A stretch of 64,000 bases of DNA, from assembly GCF_002855515.1 (NCBI RefSeq), contig NZ_PKRP01000004.1, forward strand, positions 248,001 to 312,000. The letters are read 5' to 3'. The translations under genes and the position numbers were made by a program. Under the pieces are notes generated by a model. It made no database searches and was not told the DNA's origin. It saw only the letters and a list, made by a program, of their open reading frames with translations. This stretch comes from Rhizobium sp. TH135. GTDB lineage: Bacteria; Pseudomonadota; Alphaproteobacteria; Rhizobiales; Rhizobiaceae. Of this stretch, positions 22,054-62,532 are shown piece by piece. Every line of letters starts with the position of its first letter. Position 1 is the stretch's first letter.

Positions 22054-22078
22054 GGAACCGGATCCCGGCTGCGCCGTT
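22054..22078 (+). promoter_or_regulatory. General-stress (EcfG-type) promoter candidate
   Basis: GGAAC (22054-22058), a 16-base spacer and CGTT (22075-22078) exactly match the consensus used by the alphaproteobacterial general stress sigma factor EcfG. It lies 80 bases before the ATG at 22158 and would drive the two small stress-type genes. Confidence 0.6.
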
Positions 22079-54542: not shown

Positions 54543-54718
54543 GGCTCGCGCATATAGCAGCGAGCCCTTGTATCGCAAAGCGGAAAGATCGGGTTTTGCA
54601 GGCGATCACGGCGGTTTTGACGTCGCAGGCAACAAGGTTTGCAGCCTGAGGCCGAGCCGTTGTCAGCGGCGCGGCTGTCGCCGATAGTGGGTGGGGCCCG
54701 AAAAAATCTTCTGGTCGT

Positions 54719-54745
54719 TGTCGAATCCGATGTCCGAGCCGCGTC
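54719..54745 (+). promoter_or_regulatory. ECF42-type promoter candidate
   Basis: TGTCGA (54719-54724), a 17-base spacer and CGTC (54742-54745) match the TGTCGA / CGA-or-T-C motif reported for ECF42 sigma factors. It stands 58 bases before the YciI-like gene and would make the operon autoregulated. Confidence 0.6.
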
Positions 54746-54803
54746 TCTTCATCGACGGGATCGATCGACGATGCCGCAAGGGCCCGAAGGAGGGGCAAAA
54801 CCG

Positions 54804-55166
54804 ATGCAATACCTGCTGCTGATCTACGAAAACGAAGAAATCTTTGGCGGTCCGGACAAGATGGGCCCGATCATGGCCGATCTCGGCCCCCGCCATTTCG
54901 CCTTCAGCCACGAGCTGGGCGAGAAAATGCATGCGGGCGCCGGGCTAAAGGGCACGGAGGCTGCGACCACCGTGCGCACCATGGCTGGCAAGCAGACCAT
55001 CCATGACGGTCCCTTTGCCGAGACGCGCGAACAGCTGGGCGGCTTTTATCTCGTGGAAGCCGAGGACCTCGATGCGGCGATCGCGATCGCCAGGAAGGTG
55101 CCGCTCGGCAAGGATGGCGCAATCGAGGTCCGGCCGGTCTTGCCGATGCCGCCGGGCCTGCGATGA
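54804..55166 (+). CDS. YciI/DGPF-domain protein, ECF42 partner
   Basis: 120 aa from the ATG at 54804 (GGAGGGG upstream). YCII-related fold: MQYLLLIYENEEI, TTVRTMAGKQTIHDGPFAETREQLGGFYLVEAEDLDAAIAIARK. The DGPF motif is diagnostic of the group that accompanies ECF42 sigma factors. It starts an operon with the sigma gene 12 bases downstream. The reaction, if any, is unknown. Confidence 0.92.
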   Translation: MQYLLLIYENEEIFGGPDKMGPIMADLGPRHFAFSHELGEKMHAGAGLKGTEAATTVRTMAGKQTIHDGPFAETREQLGGFYLVEAEDLDAAIAIARKVPLGKDGAIEVRPVLPMPPGLR

Positions 55167-55178
55167 AGCGTTGAAACG

Positions 55179-56417
55179 ATGCGGGCAGCGGTCCTCGACG
55201 AGACGTTTCGGGCGGCGGGCGGGCGTATCCGCGCCGCACTCGCCGCCCGCTACCGCGATCTCGACATCGCGGAAGAAGCCTTTGCCGAAAGCTGCCTCAA
55301 GGCGGTGAAAGCCTGGGGTGATGAGGAACACGACCTGCCGCGCGATCCGGCCGCCTGGCTCTACCGGGTGGCCGAGCGCGCCGCTCTCGATATCCTGAGG
55401 CGAAGGCGAACGAGGGCTGAAAACCGGCCGGACGAGCCGGAGCCCGAGCCGACCGCCGAGGATCGGCTGACAAGCGACGACGCCGTCATTCCCGACGAGC
55501 GGCTGAAACTGATCTTCGTCTGCTGCCATCCGGCGGTGGCCGCAGACAGCCGGGCTGCGCTGACGCTCAAAATGGTCTGTGGCCTTTCGACGGAGGAGGT
55601 GGCGCGTGCCTTTCTCGTTTCCGAAACGACACTCGCCCAGCGGCTGGTCCGCGCCAAGCGCAAGATTGCCGAGGCCGGCGTGAGTTTCGAGGTGCCGGGG
55701 CCGGAGCACTGGACCGAGCGGCTGGCGGCGGTGCTCTCGACGATGGAAGTCGCCTATGCCAAGGCGCATGAGGATGCGGCGGGCTCTGGCCGGCATGCGG
55801 GTTTTGCCCGAGAGATGCTGGAAGTGACGGCGCTCTTGACAGAGATGTTGCCACGGGAGGCAGAGGTTCTGGCACTCGCTGCGACGATCCGCTTTGCCGA
55901 GGCCAGGCGGCCGGCCAGGATGGATGCGGAGGGCGTGATGGTTCCGCTCGCCGAGCAGGATCCGGCGCTTTGGTCGAAGCCGCTGATCGAGGATGCCCGG
56001 CGCTATTGCGGGCGGGCGCTTGGCATCTCGGGTCCGGGTCCGCGCATTCTGCAGATGATGATCCACGCGCTCTGGTGCGGCAGGAAGAGCCTCGCCGATC
56101 AGCCGCCATGGAAGGCGGTTCTTGCGGCCTATGATATTCTCGTCGAACTGCGTGACGACGCGATTATCCGTATCAACCGGGCTGTGGCACTGGCGGAGGT
56201 AAAGGGGGCGGAGGAGGCGCTCGCCGAGCTCGATTGTCTGGATGCCGAAACGCTGTCGGATTTTTTGCCGTTTCATGCAGCCCGCGCGGATTTGCTGGCG
56301 CGGCAGGGGAGGGTTGTTGAGGCCTTGGAGGCCTATGACCGCGCGCTGGCGCTCTCGCCTGGGGAGGCGGAGCGGCGGTTTCTGGAGCGGCGGCGGGACG
56401 CGTTTGTGGCGTCCTGA
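55179..56417 (+). CDS. ECF42-family RNA polymerase sigma factor with long C-terminal extension
   Basis: 412 aa, far longer than typical ECF sigma factors. Region 2 (AFAESCLKAVKAWGDEEHDLPRDPAAWLYRVAERAALDILRRRR) and region 4 (RAALTLKMVCGLSTEEVARAFLVSETTLAQRLVRAKRKI) are in the first 170 residues. About 230 further residues are helical, with TPR-like units near the end (FHAARADLLARQGRVVEALEAYDRALAL). No anti-sigma gene is adjacent; control is thought to lie in the extension. The upstream DGPF gene fits the ECF42 group. Confidence 0.9.
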   Translation: MRAAVLDETFRAAGGRIRAALAARYRDLDIAEEAFAESCLKAVKAWGDEEHDLPRDPAAWLYRVAERAALDILRRRRTRAENRPDEPEPEPTAEDRLTSDDAVIPDERLKLIFVCCHPAVAADSRAALTLKMVCGLSTEEVARAFLVSETTLAQRLVRAKRKIAEAGVSFEVPGPEHWTERLAAVLSTMEVAYAKAHEDAAGSGRHAGFAREMLEVTALLTEMLPREAEVLALAATIRFAEARRPARMDAEGVMVPLAEQDPALWSKPLIEDARRYCGRALGISGPGPRILQMMIHALWCGRKSLADQPPWKAVLAAYDILVELRDDAIIRINRAVALAEVKGAEEALAELDCLDAETLSDFLPFHAARADLLARQGRVVEALEAYDRALALSPGEAERRFLERRRDAFVAS

Positions 56418-58392: not shown

Positions 58393-59808
58393 TCACGGTG
58401 AGGGCGTGGCCTCGGCCGTGCAGAGACGACGCGCATCGAGCAGGCCCCAGCCGAAGACCTGGTCCTTGCCGGGGCTGCCGATATCCTGCGCCAGTCCGGA
58501 GAGCGCCTCGGCCATCTGAACTGGTGTGAGGTCCGGCCGCTCGGCAAGAAGCACGGCGGCTGCGGCACTGACGAAGGGGGCGGCAAAGGATGTGCCGCTC
58601 TTCGGACGGGCGCCGCTGATCGAGGCGGCTGTCCAGACATTGACACCAGGTGCGGCGATATCGACATGCGCGCCCTGGTTCGCGCGGCGATAGGCATTGC
58701 GGCCTCTGTCGACGGCCGTCACTGCGATCACCCCGTCATAGCCGGCGGGATAGAGTGGTTTCGCCCTGGGTCCGGCATTGCCGACCGCGGCCACCAGGAT
58801 CACGCGGCGGGTGATCATGGCCTCCACGGTTGTCTTCAGCAGTACATTGTCCGGACCGGCAAGGCTGAGATTGATCACCCGAACATTGCGACCTGCCAGC
58901 GCGTCGAGCGCCCTGACCAGGTCGAAGGTGGAGGCGACATCGGCCGACCCGCCGAGCCGACGAAAGGCATCCACGGCGATCACCTCGGATGACGGCAGAA
59001 GGCCGGGTGCCCGGCTGCCGGCCGCGCCCACGAGAAGCGCCGCGACAGCCGTCCCATGCTGGCGGCCGGATTGCGGCAAGGCATCGTCGGTGATCCGGAT
59101 AACTTCGAGCCGCGCATCGCCGAGTGAGGGGTGATCCGGATTGATGGCGGTGTCGATCAGACCGATCGTCGGCAGGCTTCCGCAGCGCTGCACAAGTCCG
59201 GCAGGATCGATGGGCCAGCCTATGATCTCGCGCACGAGGGCGCAGGTCTGGCCGCCGCAATCGGGTGCGGTTTCCGTCTGCTCGGGCCGGTAATAGTGAT
59301 TGAAATCAACCTGAGCGACCGGGGCAAGGGATGTGACCCTCTCGCGCGCCGCCTCCAGCCCGGTGCCGCGCGGCACGACGAGACGCACGATCTCGGTGGC
59401 GGACCCGGTGGTCACCAGGCCGAGGCTCTGGCGCTCGGCGACGGCATAGCCTTCACCGGTCAACTGGGTGATGGCCGCCTCGGGCAGGCCTGCGGCAATG
59501 ATTTCGTTCGGCACGCGGTCGGGAATGGCGGGGGCCGCGCGACGAGAAGGTGCCGGACGTTGTGGCTGCAGGAAAGGAAACAGCGTGAAGCCGGATTGCC
59601 TCGAAGGGACGCGATCCCCTGATCGACCGGAGCCGCCTTCGCTGCGCCCACCCCCGCCATCGTCGTCCCCACCACCGTCATCGTCGTCGTCAGCATGCGC
59701 AGGTGTGAGGAGCTGGTATGTCGGGTCAAAGGGGAGAGAGACGGGTGGTGGCAGGACCACCGCGAGCCCCAGCAATCCGCCGAGCAACCTTGCAAAGACC
59801 CGATCCAT
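58393..59808 (-). CDS. Secreted S8-family (subtilisin-like) serine peptidase
   Basis: 471 aa from the ATG at 59808; the longer frame to 60183 overlaps the divergent sigma gene and is rejected. Signal peptide to about residue 39, then an acidic/Gly low-complexity stretch (DDDDDGGGDDDGGGG) and a pro-region. The catalytic triad is Asp in IGLIDTAIN, His in GRQHGTAVAALL and Ser in SGTSFAAPFVSAA. It is transcribed away from an ECF sigma/anti-sigma pair and has a GGAAT-N16-CGTA element upstream, so it is a likely target of that sigma factor. Confidence 0.9.
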   Translation of the reverse strand: MDRVFARLLGGLLGLAVVLPPPVSLPFDPTYQLLTPAHADDDDDGGGDDDGGGGRSEGGSGRSGDRVPSRQSGFTLFPFLQPQRPAPSRRAAPAIPDRVPNEIIAAGLPEAAITQLTGEGYAVAERQSLGLVTTGSATEIVRLVVPRGTGLEAARERVTSLAPVAQVDFNHYYRPEQTETAPDCGGQTCALVREIIGWPIDPAGLVQRCGSLPTIGLIDTAINPDHPSLGDARLEVIRITDDALPQSGRQHGTAVAALLVGAAGSRAPGLLPSSEVIAVDAFRRLGGSADVASTFDLVRALDALAGRNVRVINLSLAGPDNVLLKTTVEAMITRRVILVAAVGNAGPRAKPLYPAGYDGVIAVTAVDRGRNAYRRANQGAHVDIAAPGVNVWTAASISGARPKSGTSFAAPFVSAAAAVLLAERPDLTPVQMAEALSGLAQDIGSPGKDQVFGWGLLDARRLCTAEATPSP

Positions 59809-59872: not shown

Positions 59873-59897
59873 TACGTGCGAGCCGCTGGTTTATTCC
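59873..59897 (-). promoter_or_regulatory. ECF-type promoter candidate of the S8 peptidase gene
   Basis: On the minus strand GGAAT (59893-59897), 16 bases, CGTA (59873-59876), 65 bases before the ATG. It shares GGAATAA and spacing with the elements at 61261 and 62143. Confidence 0.5.
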
Positions 59898-59916
59898 GGA
59901 GAGACGGAAAGTTTTT

Positions 59917-60441
59917 ATGGTTGAGCCTGTCGATATCGTCGGAGAGCGCCTCGTCTCCTTCCTGCCGAACCTCAGGCGTTTTGCGATTTCGCTCTGCCGT
60001 GCACGCGATGTTGCCGATGATCTGGTTCAGCAGACCTGCGAGCGTGCCCTGGCGGCAGCTGCAAGCTTCGACCCAGACACCCGCTTCGACGCCTGGGTCT
60101 TCCGCATCCTGCGCAATCTCTGGCTCGACCAATTGCGCCGGCAAAAGACGGCAGGCCCTGCCGTCGATATCGATGACATCCATGATCTGTCTGTGACATC
60201 AGGCGAAGCGCAGAGTGAGGCACGGTTGGCGCTCGAAAGGGTTGAGGTCGCCCTGCAGCAATTGCCCCCCGAGCAGCGCGAAGTTCTGGTGCTGGTCTGC
60301 ATCGAGGAGCTGAGCTACCGCGATGCGGCCGACGTGCTGGAAATCCCGGTGGGCACGGTGATGAGCCGGCTCGCCCGCGCCCGAAAGGCACTTTCCGAAT
60401 TGACGGGAATAAATCCCGAAGCCAGACGTTCTTCGCCATGA
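59917..60441 (+). CDS. ECF sigma factor
   Basis: 174 aa. Sigma region 2 (LPNLRRFAISLCRARDVADDLVQQTCERALAAAASFDPDTRFDAWVFRILRNLWLDQLRRQK) and region 4 (LQQLPPEQREVLVLVCIEELSYRDAADVLEIPVGTVMSRLARARKAL) are complete. Its anti-sigma gene follows 16 bases later. The divergent subtilisin-like protease and two downstream genes carry matching GGAAT-N16-CGTT/A promoters. The signal is unknown. Confidence 0.93.
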   Translation: MVEPVDIVGERLVSFLPNLRRFAISLCRARDVADDLVQQTCERALAAAASFDPDTRFDAWVFRILRNLWLDQLRRQKTAGPAVDIDDIHDLSVTSGEAQSEARLALERVEVALQQLPPEQREVLVLVCIEELSYRDAADVLEIPVGTVMSRLARARKALSELTGINPEARRSSP

Positions 60442-60457
60442 GAAAGGCGGACACTCC

Positions 60458-61237
60458 ATGACACGCGCGATTTCCGACGAAATGCTGATGGCCTTTGCCG
60501 ATGGCGAACTGGCCCCCGCCGAACAGAGCGAAATCGAGGCGGCCCTCGCCGAGGACGAGGCTCTCGCCGAGCGCCTCGCCGTATTCATGGACACGAGACA
60601 TCAGCTCTCGGCGACGATGAAGCCGCTGATCGATGAGCCGGTGCCGGCAGCACTTAAGGCCTCCCTTGCCGCTGCGATCGCAACCGGCCGGCAGACGCAG
60701 GGCGCCAAGCCGCAAACAACCGAGACTGTCGTGCCGCTCAGGCCGCGTGCGTCGTCAACGTCTGCCGCTCGGTCCACGGGATCGGTGATCACGTCGCCCT
60801 GGGGCATTGCCCTTGCCGCGTCCTTCGTCGGGGTCGTGGTCGGTCTCGGCGGTTTCCTGCTCGGCCAATCGACCGCCGTCGCGCCTGATGGCGCGAACCT
60901 GGCACTGAACGAGGCGTTGGAAAACCTGCCCTCGGGCGGGGACCGCGCGCTCTCTGACGCCGAAAGCCTGCACATGATCGCGAGCTTTCGCGATGCCGAA
61001 GGGCATCTCTGCCGCGAATACGAGCGCAAGGCGGCAGATGCCGTGACCACGGCGGTGGCCTGCCATGGTCCGGCGGGCTGGCAGACGCGGTTTGCTCTGA
61101 CCAACCCGGTGGCGGAAGGCTACGTGCCGGCCTCGACCACGGACACGCTGGATGCCTTCCTTTCCGGCATCGGCGCGGGTGCGCCATTGTCGCCCCAGGA
61201 AGAAATCGCCGATATCGAAGCACTTCGCAGCCGCTGA
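60458..61237 (+). CDS. Transmembrane anti-sigma factor
   Basis: 259 aa. N-terminal anti-sigma domain (SDEMLMAFADGELAPAEQSEIEAALAEDEALAERL) without zinc-binding His/Cys. One membrane helix lies at about residues 112-134 (PWGIALAASFVGVVVGLGGFLLGQ). The periplasmic C-terminal domain has two Cys (GHLCREYERKA and VACHGPAGW), possibly a disulfide-based sensor. It should hold the sigma factor at the membrane until an envelope signal releases it. Confidence 0.88.
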   Translation: MTRAISDEMLMAFADGELAPAEQSEIEAALAEDEALAERLAVFMDTRHQLSATMKPLIDEPVPAALKASLAAAIATGRQTQGAKPQTTETVVPLRPRASSTSAARSTGSVITSPWGIALAASFVGVVVGLGGFLLGQSTAVAPDGANLALNEALENLPSGGDRALSDAESLHMIASFRDAEGHLCREYERKAADAVTTAVACHGPAGWQTRFALTNPVAEGYVPASTTDTLDAFLSGIGAGAPLSPQEEIADIEALRSR

Positions 61238-61260
61238 AACGAAAAAAATGATGCGGATCG

Positions 61261-61285
61261 GGAATAACTCCCCGGCGCATCCGTT
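61261..61285 (+). promoter_or_regulatory. ECF-type promoter candidate of the DUF6065-like gene
   Basis: GGAAT (61261-61265), 16-base spacer, CGTT (61282-61285), 33 bases before the ATG at 61318. Confidence 0.6.
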
Positions 61286-61317
61286 CTCCAGAGCAGACTA
61301 GGATCTGGAGAAAGCCG

Positions 61318-62034
61318 ATGAAGCTCTCGCTGCTGAAACGTCCCACACCCCGCATCACCTTCACCTGCCGCCGCGAAGACGAAGGCGTCATCACGCCGCC
61401 GGTCCGCGCGAAAACCGTGCTGCCCGAGTGGTTCCGCAAACTGCCGGCGGTGACGGAAGACAAGGTCTCGCCGACCGATAGCGGGTTGACCGTAAAGCGC
61501 TGCATGCCGTTTCTCGATGCGATGATGGCAGGCTGGGTAATCGGCCTGCCGGCAACCGTACGCATGGAAATTTCCGATGGCGGCCGCACGGTGAATTGCG
61601 GCTGGGATTTCGACCGCACCCTCGTGAGCAACCATGCCACCCATCAGGTGGCCGGCAATCCGCGGGATCCGATGCCGCCCTGCAAGTTTCACAACTACTG
61701 GACCATCCGCACGCCGCCCGGCTGGAGCTGCCTCTTCGTATCCCCGCTCAATCGCCCGAACGGGCTCTTCGAGGTGGTCGCAGGTGTCGTTGATACCGAT
61801 ACCTATCAGTCGGAAATCCACTTTCCCTTTTTCGCCACGGGCCCGGATGGCTTGCATGTGCTCGAACGCGGCACGCCGATCGTCCAGGTGATCCCCTTCC
61901 GGCGCGAGACCTCGGATCTCGAAGGCGACATCCGCAGCGAGACGGATGAGGAGCAGACGAAACGCAAGACGATCTTCCGCAAGACGATCGCCTCCGAAGG
62001 CTGGTACCGGAAGTTCGCCCGCGCCCAGCGCTGA
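61318..62034 (+). CDS. DUF6065-like conserved protein
   Basis: 238 aa, soluble, no signal peptide. It resembles the DUF6065 family: AKTVLPEWFRKLPAV, TVKRCMPFLDAMMAGWVIGLPA, FHNYWTIRTPPGWSCLFVSPLNRPNGLFEVVAGVVDTDTY and GTPIVQVIPFRRE. Function unknown. It has an ECF-like promoter and lies immediately downstream of the anti-sigma gene, so it is probably part of that sigma regulon. Confidence 0.75.
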   Translation: MKLSLLKRPTPRITFTCRREDEGVITPPVRAKTVLPEWFRKLPAVTEDKVSPTDSGLTVKRCMPFLDAMMAGWVIGLPATVRMEISDGGRTVNCGWDFDRTLVSNHATHQVAGNPRDPMPPCKFHNYWTIRTPPGWSCLFVSPLNRPNGLFEVVAGVVDTDTYQSEIHFPFFATGPDGLHVLERGTPIVQVIPFRRETSDLEGDIRSETDEEQTKRKTIFRKTIASEGWYRKFARAQR

Positions 62035-62142
62035 CAGAATCAGAATCATCCTGTTGCAGACCACCCGGAACGCCGTTTCGGGTGGCGCTTCCGGTTTTGC
62101 CGGTATTCAGAAATAAATATCTGAAAATAAATGATTTTTTTC

Positions 62143-62167
62143 GGAATAAACCTCGAGGCGATCCGTT
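62143..62167 (+). promoter_or_regulatory. ECF-type promoter candidate of the Ser/Asn-repeat gene
   Basis: GGAAT (62143-62147), 16-base spacer, CGTT (62164-62167), 50 bases before the ATG at 62218. The flanking CGTTCTTCC is close to CGTTCTCC at the 61261 element. An AT-rich TTCAGA-N8-TCTGAA palindrome lies just upstream (62106-62125). Confidence 0.6.
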
Positions 62168-62217: not shown

Positions 62218-62532
62218 ATGAAGAAATTCATCGCCATCCTGAGCTCTGTGCTCGCCATCGGCACCACCGCCCCGGCCCCCGCTCTGGCCGACGATCCGCT
62301 GACCCGCTTCCTCGACAGAAGCACAGGCGAGGGGCGCTCCCATGCGCGCTCCGGGAACCGCAATGACGATCGCGGCGGCTGGAGTTCGAACAGCAACTCC
62401 AACAGCAATTCCAACAGTTCGTCGAACTCCTCGAGCAATTCGAGCTCGAATTCCTCGTCGAACTCGTCTTCCAACTCTTCGTCGAACTCGTCCTCGAATT
62501 CGTCGTCCAACTCGTCCGACGATGACGATTGA
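62218..62532 (+). CDS. Secreted Ser/Asn-repeat low-complexity protein
   Basis: 104 aa. Signal peptide (cleavage near ALADD, residue 24), a charged linker with RSHARSGNRNDDRGG, then about 45 residues of Ser-Asn repeats changing from SN to SSN, ending DDDD. AAGGAG stands seven bases before the ATG. No enzyme domain. It could be a surface-coating, ion-binding or ice/water-interacting peptide, or a substrate of the nearby subtilisin-like protease; all are inference. A strong terminator follows, so it is a real transcription unit. Confidence 0.8.
   Translation: MKKFIAILSSVLAIGTTAPAPALADDPLTRFLDRSTGEGRSHARSGNRNDDRGGWSSNSNSNSNSNSSSNSSSNSSSNSSSNSSSNSSSNSSSNSSSNSSDDDD
62383..62517 (+). repeat. Tandem codon repeats encoding (Ser)n-Asn
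   Basis: 135 bases of short degenerate tandem units built from TCG/TCC/AGC and AAC/AAT codons. Synonymous codons vary between units, so the protein repeat, rather than recent slippage alone, seems maintained. Confidence 0.8.

Follow-up and report, generated by a model that had tools for sequence, protein, structure and literature searches.

This analysis concerns the regulon of an extracytoplasmic function (ECF) sigma factor encoded within a 64,000-nucleotide stretch of Rhizobium sp. TH135 (contig NZ_PKRP01000004.1, positions 248,001 to 312,000), hereafter referred to as the window. The sigma gene lies between a divergent protease gene and the gene of an anti-sigma factor, followed by genes encoding a DUF6065 protein and a small Ser/Asn-repeat protein. 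Promoter-like sites of a single type accompany these genes, as listed below.

58393 to 59808, minus strand: gene of an S8 (subtilase) peptidase, transcribed away from the sigma gene (PF00082, E 3.1e-35)
59873 to 59897, minus strand: promoter-like site GGAATAA-N14-CGTA, 5' of the S8 protease gene
59917 to 60441, plus strand: ECF sigma factor gene (PF08281, PF04542), counterpart of Sinorhizobium meliloti RpoE6
60406 to 60430, plus strand: promoter-like site GGAATAA-N14-CGTT, in the 3' end of the sigma gene and 5' of the anti-sigma gene
60458 to 61237, plus strand: anti-sigma factor gene; helical N-domain, one predicted membrane helix and a C-domain, with a weak zf-HC2 match
61261 to 61285, plus strand: promoter-like site GGAATAA-N14-CGTT, 5' of the DUF6065 gene
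61318 to 62034, plus strand: DUF6065 gene (PF19541, 35.5 bits against a cut-off of 26.6)
62143 to 62167, plus strand: promoter-like site GGAATAA-N14-CGTT, 5' of the Ser/Asn-repeat gene
62218 to 62532, plus strand: Ser/Asn-repeat gene, 104 residues, with a 45-residue block of tetrapeptides (NSSS or NSNS) followed by DDDD

An earlier reading of the window, made from its letters alone (the sequence-only reading), had reported the sites preceding the protease, DUF6065 and repeat genes, and both their positions and their 16-base spacing proved exact. It had further noted a T at the fifth base of the -35 element, unlike the GGAAC of the general stress sigma factor EcfG; this T is present in all four sites (GGAAT-N16-CGTT/CGTA), including the one at 60406-60430, which that reading did not contain. 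Counted from the first motif base, the start codons follow at 89 (S8), 52 (anti-sigma), 57 (DUF6065) and 75 (repeat gene) bases. The motif is real and far above chance. GGAATAA-N14-CGTW occurs at four places in the whole 4.80 Mb genome, all inside a single 2.3 kb stretch at the locus, while spacers of N13-15 add three further places, every one N15, and the looser GGAATA-N15/16-CGTT occurs at nine places, three of them at the locus. With spacers of 13-16 allowed, four matches were observed in the window against 0.07 expected, and none of 100 shuffles reached four; for the 2.8 kb region, 0.0015 chance matches of GGAATA-N15-CGTW were expected (2000 shuffles, maximum 1). The only EcfG-like GGAAC-N16/17-CGTT site in the window, at 22054, lies away from the sigma locus. 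A chance origin of the motif was rejected on the basis of the shuffles, the genome count and the scrambled-pattern counts given below.

The sigma protein shares 65.7% identity across 172 residues with a protein of S. meliloti pSymA, and the neighbouring genes are the same. Among the 25 of 90 NCBIfam models listed for it, only the superfamily model TIGR02937 scored above cut-off. A sigma tree of 54 rows placed the window protein in a supported clade of 11 rows (97/92) from rhizobial loci, but left the RpoE6 locus (L040) on an unresolved fork, with some paralogues of 39-46% identity in the same large group near long branches; because this tree did not settle orthology, the assignment to RpoE6 rests on identity and gene order. 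Lang et al. (2018; PMC6180224) assign S. meliloti RpoE6 to group ECF26 and give its consensus as -35 GGAATA and -10 GT, which all four window sites match. They name SMa0139 (glyoxylase), SMa0142 (divergent serine protease), SMa0146 and SMa0148 as prominent targets, the last two described as hypothetical, with log fold changes on RpoE6 overexpression (Table 1) of 4.7 for SMa0142, 3.6 for ecfR6 and 6.5 for SMa0148, and locate the ecfR6 promoter inside rpoE6. In the pSymA record, the printed promoters of SMa0142, ecfR6 and SMa0148 stand 5' of the S8, anti-sigma and DUF6065 genes, respectively; SMa0148 is thus the DUF6065 gene. SMa0146 is probably the 128-residue S. meliloti repeat protein, which has the motif upstream, the name being assigned by position since the pSymA record is unannotated.

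The two loci share the divergent protease, the sigma gene, an anti-sigma gene with its promoter inside the sigma gene, the repeat and DUF6065 genes, and the -35 and -10 elements. They differ in that the DUF6065 and repeat genes of S. meliloti are convergent, on opposite strands, whereas both genes run in the same direction in the window. The window locus is thus very probably an ECF26 regulon whose essentials have been described in S. meliloti, and the remark of the sequence-only reading that it knew of no such described system is not supported. A further study (PMC10880074) reports that RpoE6 strongly activates a heterologous ECF26 promoter (log2 about 8), and PMC8175422 lists SMa0142 with the peptidases that were screened and showed normal fixation. 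In PMC6180224, array data gave no defined role for RpoE6, and its unique targets were not activated by stresses that trigger rpoE2.

Conservation was followed from the genus outward. Within the genus, the sigma factor (E<=1e-40) and DUF6065 (E<=1e-20) were found in the same 12 of 63 genomes, with sigma proteins 75-99% identical. Ten of the other 11 genus loci retain every one of the five genes and four sites (GGAATA-N15-CGTN); the contig of the eleventh stops after the sigma gene and keeps both sites that it covers, so that the site 5' of the protease is present in 11 of 11. The motif search of the genome and its relatives found an N14 motif unique to the locus and kept in orthologous regions, with the gene set still together in those ten genus loci. 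By a hand tally, GGAATAR-N14-CGTT averages 4.7 per genus genome with the sigma factor (n=12) versus 1.5 without it (n=51), an excess roughly equal to the three local sites. The sites also recur in eight plasmid loci (two from S. meliloti) and 15 family loci, standing 5' of whichever of the S8, anti-sigma, DUF6065 and repeat genes occur there. The exceptions are L045 and L059 (no S8 match), L061 (no site before S8) and L069 (no site before the anti-sigma gene), and there was no DUF6065 match in the stretches of L055, L056, L059-L064 and L066-L069. Two irregularities were noted. In Neorhizobium galegae pNgVX (L043, 2122-3524 and 4184-4911), the S8 annotation is split in two and the anti-sigma match in three, resembling frameshifts; in genome G186, the locus motif sites lie on three contigs (C43, C262 and C271) with two DUF6065 copies, perhaps a mixed assembly.

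A second sample was chosen by DUF6065 and comprised the best 80 of 145 relatives from a profile scan of genome contigs. Here the motif stands 5' of DUF6065 in 70/80 loci, the repeat gene in 71/78, S8 in 50/59 and the anti-sigma gene in 50/58, compared with 6/58 for the sigma gene. The 970,650 bases held 284 motifs in total, whereas three scrambled patterns averaged 3.7. These 80 loci are not independent events, as the species are related and eight are close to the window.

The site inside the sigma gene can be judged from its codons by a column-based count. At the column concerned, Ile is ATA in 71/72 cases versus 43/625 elsewhere in the same 78 open reading frames (ORFs), and Gly is GGA in 74/77 versus 73/593 elsewhere in the same ORFs. 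On this codon evidence, the intragenic site is evidently selected as DNA. A relaxed motif upstream of the sigma gene itself was found in only 8 of 77 ORFs; four loci have a motif there but no intragenic site (L128, L133, L149 and L155), and L156 keeps both. From this distribution, it looks as though the sigma factor usually feeds back onto its antagonist rather than onto itself.

The dependence of the motif on the sigma factor was also examined in trans, using loci with no sigma gene in the stretch (about 6 kb on each side), for which a sigma gene was then sought elsewhere in the genome. Fifteen loci carry motif-bearing DUF6065 and repeat genes without a local sigma gene, and 14 of the genomes encode an RpoE6-like sigma factor elsewhere (51-68% identity). 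Conversely, the genomes of three motif-less pairs (L129, L150 and L154) are all without a sigma match at E<=1e-30. In a family sample of 151 genomes, eight have a close DUF6065 (E below 1e-100), of which six have an RpoE6-like sigma factor; the other two, G086 (best sigma match E 2.1e-26) and G100 (42% identity at 6.5e-34), hold three pairs, all motif-less. Across genomes, motif presence largely follows an RpoE6-like sigma factor.

Taken together, it is highly probable that the locus is an RpoE6-type (ECF26) regulon with four sites, for which feedback onto the anti-sigma factor and a DUF6065/repeat pair are proposed. Very probably, one ECF sigma factor drives the protease, DUF6065 and Ser/Asn-repeat genes as well as the gene of its anti-sigma factor. 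The sequences show the sites, how they are conserved and that they co-occur with the sigma factor; RpoE6-dependent expression was shown by others in S. meliloti. The proposal of the sequence-only reading that one sigma factor serves three genes accordingly stands as very probable on conservation, co-occurrence and the S. meliloti data, while its description of an envelope sigma factor gained no support. Several observations weigh against the RpoE6-type reading. A local sigma gene coexists with a DUF6065 gene that has no motif 5' of it in 7/80 loci (L128, L133, L149, L156, L158, L161 and L162), and L161, whose sigma protein is 60% identical, has no motif anywhere in the stretch. L119 is a motif-bearing pair in a metagenome-assembled genome without a detectable sigma factor, L159 has the motif 5' of DUF6065 but only a 46% sigma match, and two of the 14 in-trans sigma matches carry an in-frame TAG (genomes of L143 and L146; G605 C11 and G606 C1). 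The co-occurrence counts are inflated, because linked genes are inherited together. In addition, the authors of PMC6180224 argue for autogenous regulation of rpoE6-ecfR6 and give the inner promoter as the alternative, which makes a feedback-only design less certain. They place 27 of the 40 RpoE6-responsive S. meliloti genes in the RpoE2 regulon as well, which also counts in favour of a role for the general stress factor.

That EcfG (RpoE2 type, ECF15) mainly reads the sites, with the local sigma factor only overlapping, is nevertheless very improbable. EcfG-type promoters have an identical spacing and -10 CGTT, but the fifth base is T in all four window sites (GGAAT), in contrast to the GGAAC of most RpoE2-type promoters examined from Table 1 of PMC6180224, and the motif largely tracks an RpoE6-like sigma factor across genomes. 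We regard as rather unlikely, though less so, a shared regulon in which an ECF26-like paralogue of the same genome, of the RpoE1/RpoE4 type, also reads the sites. Three more sigma matches at E<=1e-20 exist in the genome, two with 42 and 44% identity; RpoE6 of S. meliloti also switches on the operons rpoE4-ecfR4 and sorT (PMC6180224), and RpoE1, RpoE4 and RpoE6, but not RpoE3, activate the heterologous ECF26 promoter (PMC10880074). RpoE1 and RpoE4, which respond to sulfite (PMC3511301), belong to the same sigma group but have other targets, such as sorT. Table 1 of PMC6180224 lists SMa0148 and ecfR6 with RpoE6 only and SMa0142 weakly (0.7) with RpoE4, and the 51 genus genomes without an RpoE6-like sigma factor are also without DUF6065, both of which speak against sharing. 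Finally, the close relationship of the genus loci, seen in their sigma proteins, could suggest a chance or codon-driven likeness kept by recent common descent; the motif is, however, kept in distant loci with divergent spacers, greatly exceeds the scrambled patterns and persists at an otherwise rare codon, which makes the likelihood of this explanation negligible.

Regarding the RpoE6-type regulon itself, the S8 protein has a signal-peptide-like N-terminus (by eye), and its triad D219/H251/S407 is kept in 56, 57 and 57 of 57 aligned proteins, the window protein counted. The model of the anti-sigma factor comprises helices at 7-82, a helix at 115-139 (low confidence) and an alpha/beta domain at 144-258. 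Residues 2-54 resemble the cytoplasmic domain of MucA only weakly, under the Z 8 level (Z 5.8, root-mean-square deviation (rmsd) 2.7, 53 aligned). A zinc-binding anti-sigma (ZAS) type was considered and rejected: the zf-HC2 match reaches 24.0 bits (cut-off 22.2), yet there is no Cys/His motif in the N-domain, since the window protein has no Cys in alignment columns 1-100 and the 32 sequences share no invariant Cys or His there. In the C-terminal domain, C185 and C202 are invariant in 32/32 aligned sequences; a fold search with this domain returned no clear match, EagT6/DcrB-like rows reaching Z <=5.3.

The DUF6065 protein has a predicted dUTPase-like fold. Its model (predicted local distance difference test score 82) matched a dUTPase in Foldseek (E 3.2e-4, probability 1.00, template-modeling score by query 0.32), and in VIA (Z 10.9, rmsd 6.1, 133 aligned) all 50 rows listed are dUTPases. 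Residues 156-193 align with the GTIDSDYRGE and RIAQ stretch of trimeric dUTPases, giving a stretch like motifs 3 and 4, GVVDTDTYQSEIHF...RGTPIVQ (hhalign pairwise E 0.005, with a probability of only 7%). In place of the PRSG of motif 2, DUF6065 has TPPGW (by eye), and motifs 1 and 5 were not recognised. A canonical dUTPase was rejected, as the five catalytic motifs are not all present, motif 2 being replaced and PF00692 giving no match at E 0.1; the sequence profile likewise found nothing significant among solved structures (best E 0.064). With no signal peptide seen, it would be a non-canonical, probably cytoplasmic ligand-binding protein. The Ser/Asn-repeat protein, by contrast, begins with a signal-peptide-like segment (by eye) and has no Pfam match at E 0.1. 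Its repeat block is encoded with seven different codons, which argues for its maintenance as protein sequence and against a recent expansion of the DNA.

A repeat-gene match goes with DUF6065 of the window subfamily in 78/80 loci as well as in the three sigma-less family loci. In the two exceptions (L123 and L130), the stretch stops no more than about 310 bases away from DUF6065; in L116, L153 and L159, the two genes are some 3-4 kb apart. Genome G080 has a DUF6065 gene with the site and no repeat gene within about 3 kb, its repeat gene standing beside the sigma gene on another contig. The broader PF19541 family, which matched 46 of 385 class genomes, showed the motif in 0/30 and a Ser/Asn-repeat ORF in 0/30 of the loci returned, although a distant partner could have been missed because the flanks covered up to about 1.5 kb on each side. 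The open-access literature searched returned nothing for DUF6065 and Ser/Asn-repeat phrases. By these counts, DUF6065 and the (NSSS)n protein co-occur nearly always, with or without the sigma factor, an association that goes beyond the S. meliloti work. We give about even chances to the proposal that they form an undescribed two-gene system, in which the cytoplasmic dUTPase-fold protein would bind, modify or meter something that the secreted repeat protein needs. The pair, which also stands alone, would have been placed under RpoE6-type control in most of the lineages seen; the subtilase would share that control, as would an SLC13 permease and a glycerate kinase in some rhizobia.

Glycerate kinase genes occur in 22 of 102 loci, with the same motif in 22/22, and SLC13 permease genes in 23 of 102 (L038 and L097 being the same plasmid), with a motif of their own in nine rows. 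The kinase promoter would be an addition to the described RpoE6 regulon. Motif sites at kinase or permease genes lie at 7840 in L041, 7859 in L042, 7845 in L043, 8829 in L045, 10130 and 11789 in L055, 2035 and 3657 in L061, and 1649 in L038. The window genome has no such site with N14 spacing outside the locus, the two genes themselves not having been searched for there. Two single cases involve other genes: in L056 (9100, minus strand), the motif precedes a Gly-rich protein with a Tat-like leader, beside an HPr-kinase-like ORF (labelled by eye), and in L083 (9502, plus strand), it precedes an Asp-rich small protein after the Ser/Asn-repeat gene. Elsewhere in the window, at 54639-56417, a second sigma-like gene (412 residues) directly follows a YCII-like ORF, an arrangement that we take to be ECF42-like.

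In the mechanism we propose, the sigma factor would be held by the membrane-spanning anti-sigma factor, whose outer domain bears the invariant cysteine pair, until some signal at the envelope releases it. Free sigma factor would then start transcription at GGAATAA-N14-CGTT/A before the genes for the secreted S8 protease, DUF6065 and the secreted Ser/Asn-repeat protein. It would also fire inside its own gene towards the anti-sigma gene, raising the antagonist and usually not the sigma factor, which suggests a negative-feedback design. DUF6065 and the repeat protein may act as one functional pair, and the protease may also play a part.

The authors of PMC6180224 found no function for the regulon in S. 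meliloti. Any function proposed for RpoE6 now has three things to account for: the lasting association of a dUTPase-fold protein with a Ser/Asn-repeat exoprotein across the Alphaproteobacteria examined, a sigma factor that seemingly raises its antagonist over itself, and the recruitment of a glycerate kinase and an SLC13 permease to the regulon of some rhizobia. The comparative data thereby narrow the RpoE6 question and offer concrete mutants and substrates for testing.

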